IMG/VR virus record: IMGVR_UViG_3300031455_000100
Span: 1 to 32,358 of that record
DNA: 32,358 nucleotides
Strand: one strand, 5' to 3'
Origin: a virus
Of this stretch, positions 20,483 through 32,358 are shown piece by piece (positions within the stretch are counted from its first letter, which is position 1; each line of letters opens with the position of its first letter). The position numbers and the translations under genes are program-made. The notes under the pieces are model-generated. The model had not been told where the DNA came from, made no database searches, and saw only the letters and a program-made list of their open reading frames with translations.

Positions 20483-20522
20483 TTGAGACATGGGTAACAT
20501 GATGCTACCTATGTGGTCTCAA
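20483..20522 (+). promoter_or_regulatory. Promoter and dyad operator of the AbiE-like operon
   Basis: TTGAGA (20483-20488) and TACCTA (20506-20511) are 17 bases apart and form a plausible promoter. Over it lies an inverted repeat ACATGGGTA/TACCTATGT (20488-20496 and 20506-20514, 8 of 9 matching), extended by TTGAGAC/GTCTCAA (20483-20489, 20516-20522). AbiEi antitoxins are known to autorepress by binding inverted repeats at their own promoter, so this is the likely operator. Confidence 0.65.
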
Positions 20523-20539
20523 CACAGGAGGGCACGGCT

Positions 20540-21157
20540 CTGAACACGGGACAGGATTTCGCGAACTGGCAGGATCGAAACGGGCTTCGGCGCTCTGACG
20601 CCGCGGGCATCGTTTACCTGCGCCACGCGGTCTCCGTGTCCCGCCTGCGCTCCGCCGAGACCGTGCATCCCCGCGTCGCCGCCCTTGCCGCCGTTTACGA
20701 GGCCGGCCGCTTCGTCTCCGACGACCTCGACGAGGTGGCGGAGACCCTGGGCTACGCCGACCTGTGCGCGGCGGTCCCGTTCTCGGTCGTCACCGGAGTG
20801 TCCGCGGCGACCCTGCGCGGCTGGACGACGGCGCACGTCAACGATCGTTTCGTCGCCCTCCCGCCGCACCCGGCGGCGCTGCGGCAGCCTGACCGGGTGC
20901 TGGCGCTGGCGTGTCCGGTGCTTCCCGATCACGTGGAGCTTCGCAGGGACGGCGCGGGTCGGTGGTATCGGCTCGCGGACCCGGTTCGCACCGTGGTCGA
21001 CACCGTCAGGGATGACGTCCGCCAGGGGCGTTTCCATGCCCGGGAGGTGGTCAATGCCGCGGTCGATGAGGGCGTGTCACCCGAGGCCCTGCTGGCCTAT
21101 GCGGCGCGCGTCGGCGAGCATGCCGTCACGAAGCTGAACGAATACCTCGACGCCTGA
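20540..21157 (+). CDS. AbiEi-like antitoxin of a type IV toxin-antitoxin system
   Basis: A 205-residue protein directly upstream of an AbiEii-type toxin gene. The C-terminal half has the feature style of AbiEi antitoxins (WYRLADPVRTVVDTVRDDV, then HAREVVNAAVDEGVSPEALLAYAARVG). The expected role is to block or reverse the toxin's effect without direct binding and to repress its own promoter. The start is a judgement: AGGAGG at 20526-20531 stands 8 bases before a CTG at 20540, whereas the GTG at 20513 overlaps the probable -10 and operator. No in-frame ATG exists near the N-terminus. The N-terminal winged-helix is not obvious, so the family call is moderate. Confidence 0.6.
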   Translation: MNTGQDFANWQDRNGLRRSDAAGIVYLRHAVSVSRLRSAETVHPRVAALAAVYEAGRFVSDDLDEVAETLGYADLCAAVPFSVVTGVSAATLRGWTTAHVNDRFVALPPHPAALRQPDRVLALACPVLPDHVELRRDGAGRWYRLADPVRTVVDTVRDDVRQGRFHAREVVNAAVDEGVSPEALLAYAARVGEHAVTKLNEYLDA

Positions 21158-21237
21158 TCCGTCGCCGCCGGCGGCGGGTTCCTTGCAAGCCGTCTCCCTA
21201 CTGTCGGGGTCTACCCATGACAGAGGGAGACAGGGAC

Positions 21238-22134
21238 ATGGACGGACAGAGGCTCACGGATTCACTCCGGAATCGATTCAAGGCTCAGGGCATCGGGACG
21301 CAGGAGACGTGGATCCGCTTCGCGATCGAGCGGCTCACGGTCAGGCTCGTGGCGGCCGACGAAGAGGAAAGGCTGCTCGTAAAGGGCGGCATGCTCTGGT
21401 GGCTCAAGGCGGCGCTGCGGGAGCACGCGAGGCCGACCACCGATCTCGACGTCCACGTGCACGCCAAGGACGGCCACGTGCTGTCATCGGAAGAGGTCGG
21501 AGACCTGTTCCGGACCGCCGCCACGCACGTGCAGGTCAACGACGGGTGCACCTTCGAAATCAAGCGGACGCATCCCCTGCGCCACACGGAAGACCACGAA
21601 GGGCTGCGCGTGCATGTCCGCTGCCGGATCGGCAAGACGGCCATCGATTTCCACGTGGACGTCGGTTTCGGCGGGCGCAGGCCTTCCTGGGCGACGAAAG
21701 TCAAGTTCGACTCGATGCACCCCGAACTCGAAGGCGTCACGATCCTCGCATACCCGCTCGAATACATGGTGGCTGACAAGGTGCATTCGATCTGGAAGCA
21801 TGCCGAGAAGAATACGAGGGTCAAAGACTTCAACGACCTTTTCGTCCTCGCGTCCATGCCCCTAGACGAAGACCGCCTCGCGGAAGCCGTCCGCGTCGTC
21901 TTCGAAGACCACGACGTCGCCGTTCCGGAGTCCGTAGACGCCCTCCCGGGCCTCGGGGCCGCCTACGCGATCCGCATGCAGGCCGACTGGCAGGAGTGGA
22001 CCGTCCGCGCCAACCGCGCTCACGCGATGCCCGCGGACTTCCGCGTGGTCGTGGGGAGGGTCAGGGAGATCGCGGCCCGGGCGCTCGAGGCCGGACACGG
22101 ATACGCGCCGCCGGCGCCGAGGTTCGCGGCCTGA
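21238..22134 (+). CDS. AbiEii-type nucleotidyltransferase toxin
   Basis: A 298-residue protein with the AbiEii nucleotidyltransferase hallmarks: LLVKGGMLWWLK at 47-57 (glycine motif), RPTTDLDVHV at 65-74 (catalytic Asp69, Asp71), IDFHVDV near 137-143 (third acidic site) and DKVHSIWKH...RVKDFNDLFVLA at 180-205 (K-D-x-x-D motif). Such toxins add nucleotides to tRNA or otherwise block growth, and AbiE systems can abort phage infection. I prefer the ATG at 21238 with AGGGAG upstream to the ATG seven codons earlier. Its stop abuts the stop of the convergent gene. Here it may stabilise the plasmid state or exclude other phages. Confidence 0.82.
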   Translation: MDGQRLTDSLRNRFKAQGIGTQETWIRFAIERLTVRLVAADEEERLLVKGGMLWWLKAALREHARPTTDLDVHVHAKDGHVLSSEEVGDLFRTAATHVQVNDGCTFEIKRTHPLRHTEDHEGLRVHVRCRIGKTAIDFHVDVGFGGRRPSWATKVKFDSMHPELEGVTILAYPLEYMVADKVHSIWKHAEKNTRVKDFNDLFVLASMPLDEDRLAEAVRVVFEDHDVAVPESVDALPGLGAAYAIRMQADWQEWTVRANRAHAMPADFRVVVGRVREIAARALEAGHGYAPPAPRFAA

Positions 22135-24180: not shown

Positions 24181-24314
24181 GCGGGTCTCCTGTCTCTGGA
24201 AAGAGAGTCACCCGGCGGCGTGCCGTGTTCAAATCGGGAGATTTCGCCGGCGGATTTGGTCGCGGCCGCCGGCGGGACAATCCTTGGAGTCTGGACAAGA
24301 CAGAGGAGGTCCCG
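24181..24314. promoter_or_regulatory. Divergent promoter region
   Basis: The 134-base gap separates the minus-strand accessory operon from the plus-strand GcrA-like gene. It contains a dyad AAATC-GGGA-GATTT around 24230-24244, two GANTC sites (24205-24209, 24287-24291), a minus-strand TTGAAC at the dyad edge without a convincing -10, and AGAGGAGG before the rightward ATG. Promoters for both directions are expected but I cannot fix their hexamers. Confidence 0.4.
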
Positions 24315-25373
24315 ATGAAACACATGAATCTCGCGCTGACGGTCGGAGCGGTCAGCATCAGCATCAGCATCCCGGTCGACGAGGCCGCTCAGCCGAAGCT
24401 CCGGATCGACGAGCAGCCGCTGCCGATCCCGGCGCCTGCCGTGCCGGAGCCGGAGCCGCAGGAAGACGTCGCCCCGGAGGTGAAGGACACCGGGTATTTC
24501 TGGACGGACGAGGAAGACGCCCTGCTGCGGAAGCTCTTCGAGGAGAACTTCACGCATTCCGGCATCGCACAGCGTATGGGCCGCAGCACGCAGGCCGTGA
24601 AGTTCCGTTGCCATAAGCTCGGACTGAAGAGCCAGGTCCGCACGGACTGGCCCGAGGACCGGGTGGAGACCATGCGGACCATGCTCGCCGAAGGGGCCAC
24701 GTTCAGGGACGTCGGGAAGGCGCTGGGCGTATCCGGGCAGGCCGTCCTCAAGCAGGCGGGCAAGCACGGCCTCAGGAGCCTGAACACTCGCGGCCGCAGG
24801 AAGAAGGCGTCGAAGCACGCCCCGGAACCCGAGCCGGCCGCGGCCTCTCCCCGCAAGTGGTCTCTGGAAGAGATCGCACGGCTGCGGTCTCTGATCGATG
24901 CCGGGGAGACGATGGACGCGATCGTCGAGGCGTTCCCGGCGCGGACGGAGAACGCCGTCAGGACCAAGATCAGCGACAGCGGATACCCCATGCCGATGCG
25001 CAGGGAGAGGTCTCTGACGGACGATGAGGCCTGCACCGCGTCTTCGGGATTGATCCGCTTCGCTGGATACGACTGCGGGAACCATCATCGCTGGACGGAC
25101 GAGGATGACGACGTCATCCGCGACATGGCGGCCGAGGGCTCTTCCGACAGTCAGATCGCCGAGGCGCTGGAGCGGGTCCCGCGCGTGGTCGCCAGGCGGC
25201 GCAGGAGCCTGAACGTCGCCGCAGGGGGCGGCAGGAAGGCGGACAGGATCACCGAACGGCCCTGTATCAGATGCCGGGGGCCGTTCGAGAGCGAGGGTAA
25301 GCATCACCGCATGTGCGACCGCTGCCGCCACATACCCGACAACGGCATGCCCGTCATGTCGGTCGCGGCCTGA
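24315..25373 (+). CDS. Multi-module GcrA/SANT-like regulator with zinc knuckle, 352 aa
   Basis: A 352-residue protein. After a Pro/Glu-rich lead (residues 1-58), four modules of about 43 residues follow the GcrA N-terminal pattern W-[ST]-x-x-E...L...I-A...L-G-R...A-V...LGL: residues 62-105 (FWTDEEDALLRKLFEENFTH..., best), 112-154, 182-223 and 260-300. A four-Cys knuckle ends it: C317, C320, C334, C337. GcrA binds GANTC-containing promoters with sigma70. Here, four modules could contact several sites. AGAGGAGG precedes the ATG. The next gene is a shorter paralogue. The DNA target is inferred. Confidence 0.75.
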   Translation: MKHMNLALTVGAVSISISIPVDEAAQPKLRIDEQPLPIPAPAVPEPEPQEDVAPEVKDTGYFWTDEEDALLRKLFEENFTHSGIAQRMGRSTQAVKFRCHKLGLKSQVRTDWPEDRVETMRTMLAEGATFRDVGKALGVSGQAVLKQAGKHGLRSLNTRGRRKKASKHAPEPEPAAASPRKWSLEEIARLRSLIDAGETMDAIVEAFPARTENAVRTKISDSGYPMPMRRERSLTDDEACTASSGLIRFAGYDCGNHHRWTDEDDDVIRDMAAEGSSDSQIAEALERVPRVVARRRRSLNVAAGGGRKADRITERPCIRCRGPFESEGKHHRMCDRCRHIPDNGMPVMSVAA

Positions 25374-25390
25374 GAGAGAGGAGAGAGACT

Positions 25391-25885
25391 ATGGGAAAGA
25401 CATTCACGGGATCCTCCGCCGCGGCGTGGGACGACATCCAGATGCAGGCGCTGCGTCAGCTTTTCGACGCGGGCCTGTCCGACTCCGAGATCGGCGCCAA
25501 GCTGACTCCGCCGAGGACGTGCGCGAGCGTGACGAACATGCGCCGGGTCATGGGCCTCGACGTCATCAACCGGGACCGGGACCGCTGGGACGGCCACGAG
25601 GCCGCCGATCTCGAACGCCTGTTCTTCGGCGGGGAGACCGACGCCGCCATCGCCGCGGCCCTCGGGCGGACCGTCTCGTCGGTCGCGTCCTACCGCCGGC
25701 GGCGCGGTCTCGTCCGCGAGAACGGGGGGACGGGCGGCGCGCCGAAGGCCACGGCGGGAAAAAAGACCCGGGCGTGCATGTGCTGCCGGATCCCGTTCCT
25801 GTCGGAAGGCGCCCACAACCGCCTGTGCGACCCGTGCCGGGACGGGGCCGAATCCGCCTACGGGTATCACGCCTACGCGGCGTGA
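25391..25885 (+). CDS. Shorter GcrA/SANT-like paralogue with zinc knuckle, 164 aa
   Basis: A 164-residue protein 17 bases after the previous gene. It has two helix-turn-helix-like modules (residues 13-56 AWDDIQMQALRQLFDAGLSDSEIGAKL... and 66-108 RWDGHEAADLERLFFGGETDAAIAAALGRTVSSV) and a zinc knuckle C129, C132, C146, C149. The knuckle region is nearly the same as in the larger neighbour (FxSEGxHxRxCDxC), so the pair arose by duplication with gain or loss of modules. AGGAGAGAG precedes the ATG at 25391. Terminator follows. Probably a DNA-binding regulator. Confidence 0.75.
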   Translation: MGKTFTGSSAAAWDDIQMQALRQLFDAGLSDSEIGAKLTPPRTCASVTNMRRVMGLDVINRDRDRWDGHEAADLERLFFGGETDAAIAAALGRTVSSVASYRRRRGLVRENGGTGGAPKATAGKKTRACMCCRIPFLSEGAHNRLCDPCRDGAESAYGYHAYAA

Positions 25886-25908
25886 ACGTCGCCCCTCGCA
25901 GGGTATCA

Positions 25909-25933
25909 GGGTCGCCTCCGGGCGGCCCTTTTT
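25909..25933 (+). terminator. Intrinsic terminator of the GcrA-like gene pair
   Basis: GGGTCGCC-TCCG-GGCGGCCC forms an 8-bp stem (one G-U pair; 25909-25916 and 25921-25928) followed by TTTTT, 24 bases after the stop codon at 25885. Confidence 0.88.
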
Positions 25934-25974
25934 CGTGGCCTCGGGACGGTCCCGCGTCTCTACGAGAACCTCCG

Positions 25975-26079
25975 GATTCCTGATTCTCAAACAGGGAGTA
26001 ATGGGGGGAATACGCACCGGGGGACTGACGAAAACCTTTCGAGATTCGAAACGTCTCCGAAGGATTCGAACTTCGAATC
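25975..26079. repeat. Cluster of GATTC/GATTCGAA elements between convergent genes
   Basis: Five GANTC sites lie in 105 bp: 25975, 25982, 26043, 26063 and 26075. Three are part of GATTCGAA, two in direct orientation 20 bp apart (26043-26050 and 26063-26070) and one inverted, so that 26063-26079 reads GATTCGAA-C-TTCGAATC, a perfect dyad. No gene fits between the terminator and 26099. Confidence 0.55.
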
Positions 26080-26098
26080 GACCCCGGGAGCGCCCCGA

Positions 26099-26512: not shown

Positions 26513-26869
26513 TCAGACGCGGGCGAGCTTGGGCCTGAGGCGGCCGGTCCGCGCCTGGGTCTCCACGGTCATGGGGACGCCCGCCTTGCCCGGAAAGGCC
26601 CGCGTCAGGACCTTCCGGATTTCGGAAGCCCCGGGGCCGTCCGTGGCGAGGATCATGATCGCGGCGTCCGCCAGGAGCGTCCTGATGACGGCCGGGGTCG
26701 GCTCGAGGTCACCGGAATCCTGGGCGGCCTTCCGCTTCGCACGGGCGGCGCGGTTCGCCAGACGATGGTATTCGGCGCGATCCTCGGGGGACATGGCGGT
26801 GTATCCCCGGGACGCGGCGTCGCGTTCCCGGAGACGGTCGTGGAGCTTCAGGAGCAGGGTGTCATCCAT
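26513..26869 (-). CDS. Hypothetical protein, 118 aa
   Basis: A 118-residue protein starting MDDTLLLKLHDRLRERDAASRGYTAMSPEDRAEYHRLANRAARAKRKAAQDSGDLEP. Highly helical and charged, with a Lys/Arg-rich central part. GGAG stands 9 bases before the ATG at 26869. A longer frame to an upstream ATG has no ribosome site. An 18-bp palindrome 64 bases upstream is the likely operator. It lies between the GcrA-like pair and the origin, so a regulatory or replication-accessory job is possible, but nothing in the sequence proves it. Confidence 0.65.
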   Translation of the reverse strand: MDDTLLLKLHDRLRERDAASRGYTAMSPEDRAEYHRLANRAARAKRKAAQDSGDLEPTPAVIRTLLADAAIMILATDGPGASEIRKVLTRAFPGKAGVPMTVETQARTGRLRPKLARV

Positions 26870-26932
26870 GGTCGGGGTCTCCGGTCGGATTCTCATGCCC
26901 GATGATGTCCCGGTCGGCGGAATCCACAAAGC

Positions 26933-26950
26933 GTTTTATCGCGATAAAAC
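26933..26950. promoter_or_regulatory. 18-bp perfect palindrome, probable operator
   Basis: GTTTTATCGCGATAAAAC is a perfect palindrome in an AT-rich island 64 bases upstream of the 118-residue gene's ATG. The right half on the minus strand gives GATAAA, a -10-like hexamer, but no good -35 is at 16-18 bases. A dimeric repressor site is the simplest reading. Confidence 0.55.
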
Positions 26951-27204
26951 GGAAAAAGTTTTGATCCCGCCGGACCCGGGTTTCCCCGGGCGGTCATCTC
27001 GCACGGCTCCGATCGGAAAAACGGCTAGAACCGGGCTCGCGCTCCCCAGGCGATGACACCCTCACTCCCTGCGAAACCCACGGCCCCCAGCGGTCAGGAT
27101 TCGATGGTCTCCCCAGCGGACGGGTGACCGCTCTGCGAAGCGGATTCTTTTGCCCTGCTCAGCCCGCAGGGCCACGGCTCTTCGTCGCGACGGTCTCGAT
27201 GACG

Positions 27205-27257
27205 CGGATTCAATGCTCGAAACCCTGCGGATTCACAGGGCATGGACACCCGGATTC
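27205..27257 (+). repeat. Iterons: CGGATTC at 23-bp spacing
   Basis: CGGATTCa occurs at 27205, 27228 and 27251, exactly 23 bp apart (about two helical turns). A further CGGATTC is at 27141-27147 and a looser AGGATTC at 27097. Flanks are only weakly conserved (C/G-rich before). Each copy contains a GANTC methylation target. Such phasing is what Rep_3 initiators need for cooperative binding. Confidence 0.6.
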
Positions 27258-27360
27258 AGGGGTCTCTCTGGCGGTCACGGGGGTATTCGTAAAGAGAATT
27301 CCTTATTCCCACATTAAATCCGTTGACCAATCCAGACAGGATGCGGGAAACACCCGATTC

Positions 27361-27464
27361 TTTACGTGACAGATTTCCACGGAATCTTGTCACATAGACG
27401 TTTACGTGACGAAATCCCGGTCATGTCACTCAGTCTTATCGTGACATGATTCCGAACCTGTCAC
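27361..27464. repeat. Six alternating GTGAC elements before the Rep gene
   Basis: GTGAC cores occur at 27366-27370, 27406-27410 and 27441-27445 in direct orientation and as GTCAC at 27389-27393, 27425-27429 and 27460-27464, strictly alternating with 16-23 bp between neighbours. Longer consensus is about TTACGTGACAnGATTCC. Rep proteins often repress their own promoter through inverted copies of their iteron half-sites; these may also be part of the origin. Confidence 0.65.
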
Positions 27465-27530
27465 GAAGAGGGTTGACCCGATCCCGCCGGCGCCTGACCA
27501 TCGACGTATCGAGACAGGGAGACAGGCATC

Positions 27531-29246
27531 GTGGCGGTAGACAACGGGCATGTACGCAGAGGCAGGAAGCGGTCGAAGGGGAGCCAGCGAAAGGGCGTCC
27601 GGGCGGGCGACCTTCTGACGGAGATGATCGACCGACTGCCGGAAGGCACGAACCCGACAGTCGAGAAGTCGGTCCAGCTGATCGAGGGCGTCCGCATCGT
27701 CGGAGCCGACGACCTGACCGCGAAAGACCAGGCGCTCTACGAGGCCCTTCTGGCCGTCGCCCGGGACGGCGGGATCGACGCCGACGCCCATTCCTTCGCG
27801 CTCCGTGACGCGATGAACTACCTCAAGGCCGACCGGGTCGAGCAGGTCGCGCGCTCGCTAGAGCGCCTGACCCGAACGGTCGTGCGCTACACGTTCCGGG
27901 ACGAGCGGCGCCGGACCTACGGCTCCATGCCCCTGATCCTCGCCGAGATCGTCGAAGACCTCGAGGCCGGCACGGCCGTCGTGTCCTACGTCATCCCGGC
28001 CCCGGTCAAGCGGGCCGCGCTCTCGGCGAACTCATACACCTGGCTGGAGCTTCACGCCCTCGCGGATTTCTCCAGCCGTTACGCCGCCCGTCTCTACCAG
28101 CACCTCGCCGTCGACGCGGTCAAGGATCCGAGCGTCGTCAAGCCGTGGGTCGTCGAGCCGCTCGAACTCGCGCGCATGCTCGGCTATCCGCTCGAAGCGG
28201 ACGGCAGCCTGCACTACGGCTCGTTCAAGCGCCGCTGCCTCGTGCCTGCCATGCAGGACATCGCGGACCACGTGAAGCTCTTCACGGCCACGTGGAAGGC
28301 GGAGCGCGGTTCGGGCCGCGGCCGTCCCGTCACCCTGACATTCCGGGTCACCCCTGCCGAAAAGGCCTTCGAGGCCCACAAGGCCGCCCGCCTGACATAC
28401 TGGAAAGGCTTCCACGACCGCCCGGACCCGAACCATTCCCCCGAGGAACTCCCGTCGAAGCTGGCGATCGGCAGGGCGATCACGGCCACCGGGACCGACG
28501 AAGTGACCTCGTCAAACGGCTGGCGCGCCGCCCTCGACAGGGCGAAAGCCGACCCCCGTTCCTACGTGGCCCCCGGCATGACCGGGCAGGCGCTGCTCGA
28601 CGACCTCGACGACCGCGGCGCCGACATGGCTTTCGGGCGCTGGATTCAGGCATCCAAGGACACTCCGATCTCGATGGACCGGACGGCCGGGACCGCTCCC
28701 GCACAGCCCGTCATGCCCGAGCGCGAAAGGGTCGCCCGGCAGATCGCGCAGGACGCCGTCTGGCATCTCGAAGGCTGGATGGGAGACCCGTCGCGGGGCA
28801 TCCCCAGCCCGTGGAACGACGATCTGATCCGCGACCTGTGCGTCATCTACGCGGGGCCGTTCAAGTCGGTGGAACACCCCGAGGCCGGACCCGATGCACA
28901 CGCCGCCGTACCGCGCCTGTCCGCCGCCCTCGCGGTCCTGCGCAAGTCGTCGCCGGAGCACCGCCGCAGCGCCCTGAAAACCCTGTGCGAGGCCATCGCC
29001 GCGTGGGACATGGACCGCCTTGCCCGCGTGTCCGGCGGCATCATCGGCGGCGGCCCCAAGGCCTCGCCGGCCCCGGCCAGGACGCCGCCCAAGCGGACGT
29101 CCTACTTCTCGGGCACCCGCGAGGTCACCGAGCTGGATACCGGGGTCGACTCGCTCTACGGGATCGAGGACTTCGACGACCGGGACGTCTCGGACTTCGA
29201 CCCGCCGGAGCCGGACGCCTACATGCAACCTGTTGACGAGGACTAG
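27531..29246 (+). CDS. Replication initiator, Rep_3 family, with C-terminal extension
   Basis: A 571-residue plasmid-type initiator. Residues about 60-155 form the first winged helix (VEQVARSLERLTRTVVRYTF; SMPLILAEIVEDLE), and 165-275 the second, with the family's typical segments SSRYAARLYQHL, LELARMLGYP, FKRRCLVPAMQDI and GRPVTLTFRV. Rep_3 proteins usually end at about 250-350 residues; here about 290 more residues follow, acidic and with a helical core (ALAVLRKSSPEHRRSALKTLCEAIAAWD) and a disordered tail. Starts at a GTG with AGGGAG upstream. It melts the adjacent origin to start plasmid replication. This is the main evidence that the phage can persist as a plasmid. Confidence 0.9.
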   Translation: MAVDNGHVRRGRKRSKGSQRKGVRAGDLLTEMIDRLPEGTNPTVEKSVQLIEGVRIVGADDLTAKDQALYEALLAVARDGGIDADAHSFALRDAMNYLKADRVEQVARSLERLTRTVVRYTFRDERRRTYGSMPLILAEIVEDLEAGTAVVSYVIPAPVKRAALSANSYTWLELHALADFSSRYAARLYQHLAVDAVKDPSVVKPWVVEPLELARMLGYPLEADGSLHYGSFKRRCLVPAMQDIADHVKLFTATWKAERGSGRGRPVTLTFRVTPAEKAFEAHKAARLTYWKGFHDRPDPNHSPEELPSKLAIGRAITATGTDEVTSSNGWRAALDRAKADPRSYVAPGMTGQALLDDLDDRGADMAFGRWIQASKDTPISMDRTAGTAPAQPVMPERERVARQIAQDAVWHLEGWMGDPSRGIPSPWNDDLIRDLCVIYAGPFKSVEHPEAGPDAHAAVPRLSAALAVLRKSSPEHRRSALKTLCEAIAAWDMDRLARVSGGIIGGGPKASPAPARTPPKRTSYFSGTREVTELDTGVDSLYGIEDFDDRDVSDFDPPEPDAYMQPVDED

Positions 29247-29555: not shown

Positions 29556-30341
29556 ATGACGAAGCTCTGGGTCCTTTCGGACCTCCATTTTGAACACGAG
29601 GACGTGCCGCCCGCGCTGGAAATCCCCGCGGATGCCGATGTCTGCGTCCTGCCCGGCGACCTTCTGAACCGGGGCGGGCAGAGGTCGTTGGACTACCTCG
29701 CCGCGCAGGTCGCACCGCACATGCCCGTGGTCTTCGTGCCGGGGAACCATGAGTATTACGGTTCGGGGATCGCGGAGGGGCGGCACCTCATGCGGTCGGC
29801 TCGGCTGCCGGGTGTCCATGTCCTTGACGACGCCCTATGCGTCATCGACGGGGTCCGGTTCGTCGGCGCTACGCTGTGGACCGATTTCCTGTTCGGCGGG
29901 AGCCGCGAGTGGAACGCGCATGCGGCTCAAGGACTGATGAACGACTACAAGGCCATCGCGCTTCAGAAGCGCCCGTGGAAGCGCCTGTCGCCGACCGATA
30001 CCGAGCGCATGCACTGGGCCTCGCGGCGCTTCATCGAAGACGCGCTGCGCATGCGTCACGACGGCCCGACCGTCGTCGTCACGCACCACGCTCCGCATCC
30101 GGGGTCGATCCACCCGCGCTATGAGGGTTCCGGTCTCAACGCCGCGTTCGTCTCGGACCTGACGGAGATGATCACCCATTTCGAGCCGGACCTCTGGCTC
30201 CACGGTCACGTGCATGACGGCGTGGATTACCACGTCGGCGGCACCCGGGTCGTGGCGAACCCGAAAGGCTACGGGAACGAGAACCCGGGCTTCGATCCGA
30301 AGTTCGTGATCGACCTCGCGGCGCCCGCGCCTCGACCCTGA
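29556..30341 (+). CDS. Calcineurin-like metallophosphoesterase
   Basis: A 261-residue two-metal phosphoesterase. Motifs are complete: SDLHFE (D9, H11), PGD (D35), GNHE (63-66), THH (176-178) and HGHVH (216-220). It hydrolyses phosphoesters using Mn or Fe/Zn; the actual substrate (protein phosphate, cyclic or diadenosine nucleotide, DNA) cannot be read from the sequence. The start has AGGAGA 8-9 bases upstream. No signal peptide, so cytoplasmic. It lies between Rep and the AAA+ protease gene, 55 bases before the latter, and is likely co-transcribed. Phages often carry such enzymes to counter nucleotide signals, which is only a suggestion. Confidence 0.9.
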   Translation: MTKLWVLSDLHFEHEDVPPALEIPADADVCVLPGDLLNRGGQRSLDYLAAQVAPHMPVVFVPGNHEYYGSGIAEGRHLMRSARLPGVHVLDDALCVIDGVRFVGATLWTDFLFGGSREWNAHAAQGLMNDYKAIALQKRPWKRLSPTDTERMHWASRRFIEDALRMRHDGPTVVVTHHAPHPGSIHPRYEGSGLNAAFVSDLTEMITHFEPDLWLHGHVHDGVDYHVGGTRVVANPKGYGNENPGFDPKFVIDLAAPAPRP

Positions 30342-30396: not shown

Positions 30397-32358
30397 ATGT
30401 CCGCGGCCGGCGGAGCCATGCCGAAAGCCACCGCCATGCCGTTCAGTTTCAACAACGCTCCTGAGAAGAAAGCTCCGAACACCCCGCCGCCCGCGGTCCG
30501 CAAGTCCCTGCGGAAGACCGTCGCATGGATGAACGTCCGCGCCGCTTTCCGTCACCTGCCGTCGCTCTGGAACCAGGACGCGGCGGTCATCGTCGGAGTG
30601 GTCGTCCCGGAAGATGACGTCACGGCTTACTCTGACGTACTCGGAACGATCCTGCACTCCGACAGCGCGTCTTCGGACGTGCTTTCCGAGGACGGGAAAT
30701 GGACGCTCGAAGTCCAGCTCGCGGCGGCGATCCGCTCTGGCACGACGGCCCGGCTCGGCCTCGTCGTCAGTGACCGGGCAAAAATCCCGCCCCATTTCGC
30801 CGCCGTAGCGAACGCGATTGTCGACGTGCCGCCCCGGTGCACGAAGCGGCTTGCGGGCGCGGTCTGGCACCTCGTCGGCAAGCACGCCGCCGACGCAGAC
30901 ACCGACTGCCTGGCGGCACACGACACCGACGTGGTGTCGGCGCTCCTGCGCACGACCCGATGCCCGGCGAGGGCCGCTGCGGCGCTGCGCAAGCTCGCGG
31001 CAGACGCGCCACCACCCGCCGCACGGCCGTCCGGTCCGCGTCTCGAAGACCTCCATGGTTACGGGGAAGCACAGGCGTGGGGTCTCGATCTCGCCCGCGA
31101 CCTCGCCGACTGGCGGTCCGGAACGCTGCCTTGGGCGGACGTGGATCGGGGCGTCCTGCTGAGCGGTCCTCCAGGCACGGGCAAGACCACGTTCGCGGCA
31201 GCCCTCGCGCGGACCTGCGGCGCGCATTTCATCGCGGGGAGCTATGCAGCCTGGCAGTCTGCCGGGCATCTCGGGGATTTCCAGAGAGCCCTGCGCAAGG
31301 CCTTCGCGGACGCAAGGAAACACGCGCCGACGATCCTGCTGATCGACGAGATCGACGCTATCGGCAGCCGCGCGTCCGGGGACAGCCATGACCGGGAATA
31401 CAGCAACAAGGTCATCGCGAGTTTCCTGGAGGTGCTGGACGGCGCGGAGGGCCGTGAGGGCGTGGTCGTCGTAGGCTGTGCGAACCACCCGGATGACCTC
31501 GACCCGGCGCTTCGGCGGCCGGGGCGGCTCGACAGGCACATCGTCATCCCGGTTCCGGACGGCAAGGCCCGCCTCGGCATCCTGCGGCATCACCTGTCTG
31601 GCGCGCTCGCCGGGGAGGACCTGTCGGCCGTCGTCGACCTGACCGAGGACTGGACGGGCGCGGCGCTGGAGAAGCTCGTCCGCGACGCCCGGCGCCTTGC
31701 CCGGCGGCACCGCCGCGACATGACCGTCGGCGACATGCTCGAATGCCTGCCGTCGCGCGTCCCGGTGCCGGAAGAGGCCCGCTGGCGCATCGCCGTGCAC
31801 GAAGCCGGGCACGCCGTCGTCGGGCTTGAAACGGCGGGCGACGAGATCGTCTCGGTCGAGGTCGCCCGGATGCGGACGGCGGGCGACGAGCGGCTCCGGG
31901 CCTCGGTCACGTGGCGGGCAGACGAGGACGCTCTGCTCATCGCGCCGGCCGGCAGCTACCTCGACCGCATCGCGACGGTCCTGGGCGGCATGGCGGCGGA
32001 GCGCGTCGTTTTCGGTGACGCGTCGGACGGCTCCGGCGGCCCTGAGGAATCGGACTTGGCGAAAGCGACCCGCCTCGCGGCCGCTCTTGAAGGATCGCTG
32101 GGTCTCGGCGGAACCCTGACGCACCTTGCCACGCTCGACCAAGCACACCTGCTAGCGACGAAGGATTTCACCATCCGGAAGTCCGTCGAGGCAACGCTAC
32201 AGGAGTGCCTTAAGCGCGCCGAAGCCATCGTGACCGAACGCCGGGAGGACGTGCTCGCGGTCGCCCGGGCGGTAATGGAGCGCGAGAAGCTGACCGGGGA
32301 AGAGGTCCGGGAGATCGTCACCCGGCAGCCTCGGCTCCGGCTCGTCCCGGGTGGGTGA
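30397..32358 (+). CDS. Soluble FtsH-like AAA+ ATPase with M41 zinc peptidase domain
   Basis: A 653-residue protein. Residues 1-~215 hold a poorly conserved region that looks like a degenerate ATPase or adaptor domain. AAA+ core: Walker A GPPGTGKT 257-264, Walker B ILLIDEID 313-320, second region of homology with arginine fingers RRPGRLDR 373-380. Peptidase: HEAGH 468-472 and the third zinc ligand Asp553 in EESDLAKAT. All catalytic parts are present, but there is no transmembrane segment, unlike FtsH, so it should be cytoplasmic. Similar soluble AAA-M41 proteins exist in alphaproteobacteria. It may degrade a host or phage regulator. The stop codon is the last base of the window. Ribosome site before the ATG is weak (GTGAG). 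Confidence 0.88.
   Translation: MSAAGGAMPKATAMPFSFNNAPEKKAPNTPPPAVRKSLRKTVAWMNVRAAFRHLPSLWNQDAAVIVGVVVPEDDVTAYSDVLGTILHSDSASSDVLSEDGKWTLEVQLAAAIRSGTTARLGLVVSDRAKIPPHFAAVANAIVDVPPRCTKRLAGAVWHLVGKHAADADTDCLAAHDTDVVSALLRTTRCPARAAAALRKLAADAPPPAARPSGPRLEDLHGYGEAQAWGLDLARDLADWRSGTLPWADVDRGVLLSGPPGTGKTTFAAALARTCGAHFIAGSYAAWQSAGHLGDFQRALRKAFADARKHAPTILLIDEIDAIGSRASGDSHDREYSNKVIASFLEVLDGAEGREGVVVVGCANHPDDLDPALRRPGRLDRHIVIPVPDGKARLGILRHHLSGALAGEDLSAVVDLTEDWTGAALEKLVRDARRLARRHRRDMTVGDMLECLPSRVPVPEEARWRIAVHEAGHAVVGLETAGDEIVSVEVARMRTAGDERLRASVTWRADEDALLIAPAGSYLDRIATVLGGMAAERVVFGDASDGSGGPEESDLAKATRLAAALEGSLGLGGTLTHLATLDQAHLLATKDFTIRKSVEATLQECLKRAEAIVTERREDVLAVARAVMEREKLTGEEVREIVTRQPRLRLVPGG

Follow-up and report, generated by a model that had tools for sequence, protein, structure and literature searches.

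Two questions are raised by this locus: whether the gene-free DNA ahead of a rep gene serves as replication origin for a phage with a plasmid lifestyle, and whether its GANTC sites or some other repeat would be the sites to which the initiator binds. The window, i.e. the whole stretch of 32,358 nucleotides that was analysed, encodes a terminase, a portal, capsid E and a tape measure protein together with a Rep_3 initiator, as expected of a phage-plasmid. An earlier note had placed an origin here and had taken GANTC to be the core of its iterons. The origin part of that proposal is sound, given that the gap lies directly before a Rep_3 initiator of RepE fold on an element that also encodes phage structural proteins, and we consider the gap very probably a replication origin/control region. 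GANTC as the iteron core was not supported: inverted dyads are the stronger repeat, GANTC is present in 2 of their 6 half-sites, and its enrichment is not kept in eight related elements. Our preferred reading, to which we assign a probability of about three in four, is that 26930-27530 is an ordinary RepE/Rep_3-type origin/control region of a phage living as a plasmid, with Rep most likely bound to six dyad half-sites. It draws on computed results, namely the fold of Rep, the occurrence of the dyads nowhere else in 32 kb, their F-like geometry and the missing conservation of GANTC. An epigenetic explanation is thereby replaced by a simpler and testable one, consisting of a RepE-fold initiator and operator dyads of F type, carried by a phage-plasmid whose host is probably an alphaproteobacterium. 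The region and its initiator gene contain the following features:

26930-27530, no strand: intergenic region, very probably origin/control, between a small divergent gene and rep; gene order kept in relatives
27097-27258, plus strand: array A, five same-strand GGATTC copies at 27097, 27142, 27206, 27229 and 27252, with a GANTC in each
27280-27345, no strand: A+T-richer stretch between the two arrays, candidate DNA-unwinding element
27366-27393, no strand: dyad 1, GTGACA-N16-TGTCAC, half-units u1 (minus) and u2 (plus), with the GANTC at 27382 inside
27406-27429, no strand: dyad 2, GTGACG-N12-TGTCAC, half-units u3 (minus) and u4 (plus)
27441-27464, no strand: dyad 3, GTGACA-N12-TGTCAC, half-units u5 (minus) and u6 (plus), with the GANTC at 27448 inside
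27531-29246, plus strand: rep, Rep_3-family initiator with two winged helices, RepE-like by profiles and model

The initiator and RepE of the F plasmid

Rep matches PF01051 (Rep3_N) at 3.3e-6, above the cut-off, and PF21205 (Rep3_C) at 0.002, just below it. Its AlphaFold model was built from eight relatives, with the Shinella plasmid proteins excluded from the structure-prediction alignments, and is mostly above pLDDT 70 for residues 40-278 and poor for the last 190 residues. This model superimposes on RepE54 of mini-F with a Z score of 19.2 (216 of 221 residues, 2.9 A), followed by the pi protein of R6K (Z 16.4), the RepE dimer on operator DNA (2z9o; Z 11.2) and RctB (Z 9.9), and both winged helices 1 and 2 of a Rep_3 initiator are present. 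Calling the gap an origin is sound because the protein encoded directly downstream matches F RepE in its model.

For comparison, repE of the F plasmid is preceded by four TGTGACAA iterons (TGTGACAAATTGCCC) and, directly before the gene, by one operator GTGACA-N11-TGTCAC, the half-site TGTGACA being common to iterons and operator. The F operator is bound by RepE dimers, which leads to autoregulation (PMC13028717).

Inverted dyads directly upstream of rep

The strongest repeat of the gap, absent from the earlier note, is a set of GTGACA/TGTCAC inverted repeats within 27350-27475, a segment whose pairwise repeat excess, at five word sizes, was reached by none of 300 shuffles. The record as a whole holds six GTGACA/TGTCAC, five of them within 27366-27464, with one GTGACG among these five. 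The looser pattern GTGAC-N10-20-GTCAC is found three times in 32 kb, always within 27366-27464, as against an expectation of 0.33 (none of 100 shuffles reached three). The dyads resolve into six 19-bp half-units of strictly alternating orientation, which are also the six best matches in the window to a matrix derived from these same half-units (17.1-24.5 bits, the next best scoring 12.5). As putative inverted-repeat operators, the three have the form GTGAC-N14-18-GTCAC, and the last ends 66 bp before rep.

The dyads are likely the operator of Rep, because they carry the F half-site at nearly the same spacing and stand before a Rep of RepE fold. Rep would thus be expected to bind the six GTGACA half-sites of the three dyads (27366-27464); its dimers would repress rep, and its monomers, on the dyads or on other sites, might open the A+T-rich stretch at 27280-27345, the putative unwinding site. 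In 40-bp windows, A+T content reaches 55-65% at 27275-27305 against about 30-40% across most of the upstream gap. The locus shares with F RepE/oriS a two-winged-helix initiator, an inverted GTGACA operator directly before rep and an A+T-rich stretch upstream, but differs in having three operator dyads rather than one, in the missing direct GTGACA iterons, in that the DnaA box TTATCCACA was not found here, and in the long extra C-terminal part of Rep.

Some observations sit less comfortably with this reading. A search for direct GTGACA repeats before and after rep found none, and since every one of the 6 half-sites lies in a dyad, the initiation sites proper might be elsewhere, in array A or in something unseen. 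A sigma-70 promoter was not matched before rep, or elsewhere in the region, by a simple consensus. Moreover, Rep and RepE are just 13-14% identical, so that their common GTGACA half-site could be convergent. It is also conceivable in principle that the dyads are bound by a phage repressor other than Rep, since dyads of this sort are the usual sites of many dimeric repressors and the element encodes further HTH proteins; given that half-site and spacing match the operator of RepE, whose fold Rep has, and that the dyads lie directly before rep, we regard this as decidedly unlikely.

GANTC density and the GGATTC array

All eight GANTC positions reported earlier were recovered (27098, 27143, 27207, 27230, 27253, 27356, 27382 and 27448), and this stretch has the maximum GANTC density per 355 bp of the record. 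The former expectation of about one site was, however, overstated, as composition alone gives 1.4, and dinucleotide shuffles give 3.0 for the 355 bp and 4.6 for the gap 26930-27530. The excess has P=0.002 for the trimmed 355 bp, whose ends were picked at sites, and P=0.08 for the whole gap. When gene-free and coding DNA were compared over the whole element, as the earlier note had proposed, noncoding DNA was indeed enriched (24 sites in 2464 bp versus 78 in ~29,700 bp of coding sequence, about 2.7/kb; P=6e-7), but the origin gap (8 in 601 bp, 13.3/kb) was not significantly denser than the other noncoding DNA (16 in 1863 bp, 8.6/kb; P=0.21). Dinucleotide shuffles give 10.1 sites for that other noncoding DNA, and the noncoding excess over coding is largely a matter of base make-up. 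The GANTC sites in the gap are mostly the usual content of gene-free DNA of such composition. Avoidance of GANTC was likewise discarded as a signature of the host: the deficit in the whole record (104 versus 196 in whole-record shuffles) vanishes with synonymous-codon shuffling, where coding sequence has 78 sites versus 81.6, and is therefore a codon effect.

In the origin gap 7 of the 8 sites read GATTC on the plus strand, and five of them GGATTC, whereas elsewhere the four forms are evenly split. This bias points to a longer, asymmetric word and not to a methylase site as such. The copies at 27207, 27230 and 27253 are spaced by exactly 23 bp, as first described, and have the word CGGATTCA in common. 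GGATTC is present in 5 copies versus 0.5 in shuffles (P=3e-4 for that single word); 0.5% of shuffles have some 6-mer in five or more same-strand copies within 165 bp, and 1.6% have an equally spaced triple of a 7-mer. Outside an 8-bp core the 23-bp units have little likeness (P about 0.02-0.05 at word lengths of 14-20). Hexamer counts alone are weak, about a quarter of shuffles having some hexamer with five copies in the gap, and the analysis therefore relied on longer words and on the geometry of the dyads. Array A is thus a second, separate short array with moderate support, and may be a second Rep site, the site of another protein or a duplication remnant aided by chance.

Three explanations compete for array A or for the GANTC sites at large. 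One takes its direct CGGATTCA repeats for the true iterons of Rep monomers, the dyads being only an autoregulatory operator and GANTC accidental. The order array, A+T-rich stretch, dyads and rep would suit it, as would the direct repeats on one strand, the CGGAATC in 2 of the 6 dyad half-units, one base from CGGATTC, and the example of F with its direct iterons and inverted operator. Yet the TGTGACA that F iterons and operator have in common is missing from array A, its unit is conserved over just about 8 bp with copy spacings of 45, 64, 23 and 23, and no comparable GGATTC array was seen in relatives. We hold this possible, though rather doubtful. According to another, the GANTC sites of array A act in a promoter of rep or of an antisense RNA and respond to CcrM/GcrA, a role that has been proposed in repABC replicons. 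The element-wide noncoding enrichment and the presence of GANTC in promoters that control ori2 of Agrobacterium (PMC11514494) speak for it; the lack of a promoter-like match to the simple consensus in the region, and the base make-up behind most of the enrichment, speak against it and leave it quite unlikely. The third explanation is that Rep and/or the GcrA-like proteins bind iterons with a GANTC core and that CcrM methylation licenses initiation. The eight sites in 355 bp, the five same-strand GGATTC and the triple at 23-bp spacing speak for it; the density tests and strand asymmetry above weigh against it, and further evidence is given below.

Comparison with related replication modules

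A single-sequence query found no close Rep relatives in the phage, viral-contig or genome-contig sets. Relatives were instead found through the neighbouring FtsH-like AAA-M41 protein, and one Shinella plasmid through Rep itself. Eight related elements have the order small gene, gap, Rep_3 and AAA-M41: Shinella sumterensis NZ_CP132305, the IMG/VR elements L034-L039 and the Rhizobium MAG L018, some of them with the metallophosphoesterase (in L039 no copy of the small gene was found). In contrast to the window, their gaps each have their own repeat words and 1-4 GANTC, near expectation (1, 4, 4, 3, 2, 2, 1 and 3, or 20 versus 19.6 expected). The closest relative, L039, has a Rep of only 30% identity, and carries twice the word TCGGAACTTGTCAT, which resembles the window half-unit and is without GANTC. 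The L039 gap scores only modestly against the half-unit matrix (top match P=0.015, top four jointly P=0.21), which, with the low identity, tempers our preferred reading. Ahead of rep in L038 stand direct AAATCCCAT repeats together with an inverted dyad of AAATCCCATTTAA (13/13), the F layout built on a different word.

A general GANTC rule for Rep_3 origins was rejected. When Rep_3 genes were sampled class-wide from genomes around an alphaproteobacterial centre, the upstream regions of this small, mixed sample had 31 GANTC versus 22.4 expected, but the control word TCNGA had 34; because GANTC is no commoner than TCNGA and the sample is of this kind, we claim no such rule.

GcrA-like proteins, methylation and the probable host

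Two genes upstream of the origin bear on the proposed role of methylation:

24225-25373, plus strand: GcrA-like protein 1, with several Myb/HTH units followed by a Cys-rich finger at the C terminus
25313-25885, plus strand: GcrA-like protein 2, with HTH units and, at the C terminus, a finger as in protein 1

The GcrA protein combines an N-terminal HTH with a C-terminal sigma-interacting domain. The first protein matches Pfam GcrA at 5.8e-17 over positions 2-67 of 155 only, its best PHROG being a D5-like regulator, and the second over positions 2-30 of 155 only, below the curated cut-off, so that in both just the N-terminal helix-turn-helix of the GcrA architecture is matched. The argument made earlier from these proteins is weakened accordingly: the N-terminal HTH does match GcrA, while the proteins are multi-HTH chains ending in a zinc finger. 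The two genes are adjacent, their called frames overlap by 61 bp, and the common C-terminal Cys-rich (zinc) finger is phrog_13335. The gap that follows the second gene (25886-26098), between convergent genes, is the record's densest GANTC gap (5 in 213 bp) and holds the inverted words GATTCGAA/TTCGAATC.

In P1 and Vibrio chromosome 2, GATC sites are part of the iterons. The window resembles these as an iteron-type replicon, with the RctB fold a distant match, but its GANTC is neither conserved nor a constant part of the putative initiator site, being present in 2 of 6 half-units and in none of the L039 counterparts. The host is probably alphaproteobacterial, as the relatives of the module sit in alphaproteobacteria. 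Most alphaproteobacteria carry CcrM, and GANTC is over-represented in repABC loci, with Agrobacterium ori2 affected by CcrM (PMC11514494); phage GcrA homologues are already known from phiCbK (PMC3556154). With repABC replicons (Agrobacterium ori2, pTi) the window shares a GANTC-containing control region, the status of a secondary replicon and a probable alphaproteobacterial host. On the other hand, the RepC origin lies within repC, whereas here the initiator is a Rep_3 protein, the region lies upstream and there is no conserved GANTC excess. Furthermore, where PMC6090056 cites Pinto 2011, RepC-origin binding is reported as methylation-independent. Taken with the host and the repABC precedent on one side, and with the unconserved GANTC and the likeness to GcrA confined to the HTH on the other, licensing of initiation by methylation is in our estimate highly improbable. 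We likewise find it very doubtful that CcrM methylates the five CGGATTC-type repeats at 27097-27258 and that these, read by Rep or the multi-HTH GcrA-like proteins, act as a control array tying replication of the RepE-type phage-plasmid to the host cell cycle; none of the present findings calls for such control. A cell-cycle link in the probable alphaproteobacterial host is conceivable; the Rep sites give no indication of one.

Neighbouring genes of the replication module

The preferred RepE-like origin is flanked by the following features:

26513-26929, minus strand: small divergent gene, conserved beside the origin, with homologues in L004, L018, L019 and L034-L038
26932-26951, no strand: perfect 20-bp palindrome CGTTTTATCGCGATAAAACG adjoining the small gene, candidate operator or partition site
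29556-30341, plus strand: calcineurin-like metallophosphoesterase of the replication module (PF00149, 1e-15)
30397-32358, plus strand: FtsH-like AAA+/M41 peptidase (PF00004, 7.5e-34; PF01434, 5.5e-17), conserved downstream of rep

The small divergent protein has no match in Pfam, PHROG or PDB and is predicted to have an all-helical fold. Other palindromes occur at the matching place in relatives, e.g. TTCTACATGTAGAA twice in L037, and protein and palindrome are possibly a partition or regulatory pair. The metallophosphoesterase has a homologue in L034, and one is annotated beside the module in L004. The FtsH-like protein is 39% identical to one beside rep in Shinella L004 (3904-5913); such an AAA+ M41 protease, with its HEAGH motif, adjoins the Rep gene in nine elements (the window, L004 and L034-L039 included) and might control turnover of the initiator. 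The module common to the nine elements, made up of the small protein, Rep_3, metallophosphoesterase and FtsH-like protease, represents a little-described replicon type.

The last three letters of the record (32356-32358) are the stop codon of the AAA-M41 gene. A search of the record's ends found no terminal repeat, and an incomplete or circularly permuted element is therefore probable. No tRNA was found in the search for a tRNA or attachment site, and a terminase scan of viral contigs gave no matches. Within 20513-22134, an AbiEii-type nucleotidyltransferase gene (PADLOC 2e-50) follows an unmatched 214-aa gene, which may be its AbiEi-like partner. Finally, plasmid RHOApd of Rhodovastum atsumiense (L010), a 115-kb record marked linear, encodes a terminase, a portal and a protein of the same AAA family as the window, and is apparently a further alphaproteobacterial phage-plasmid.
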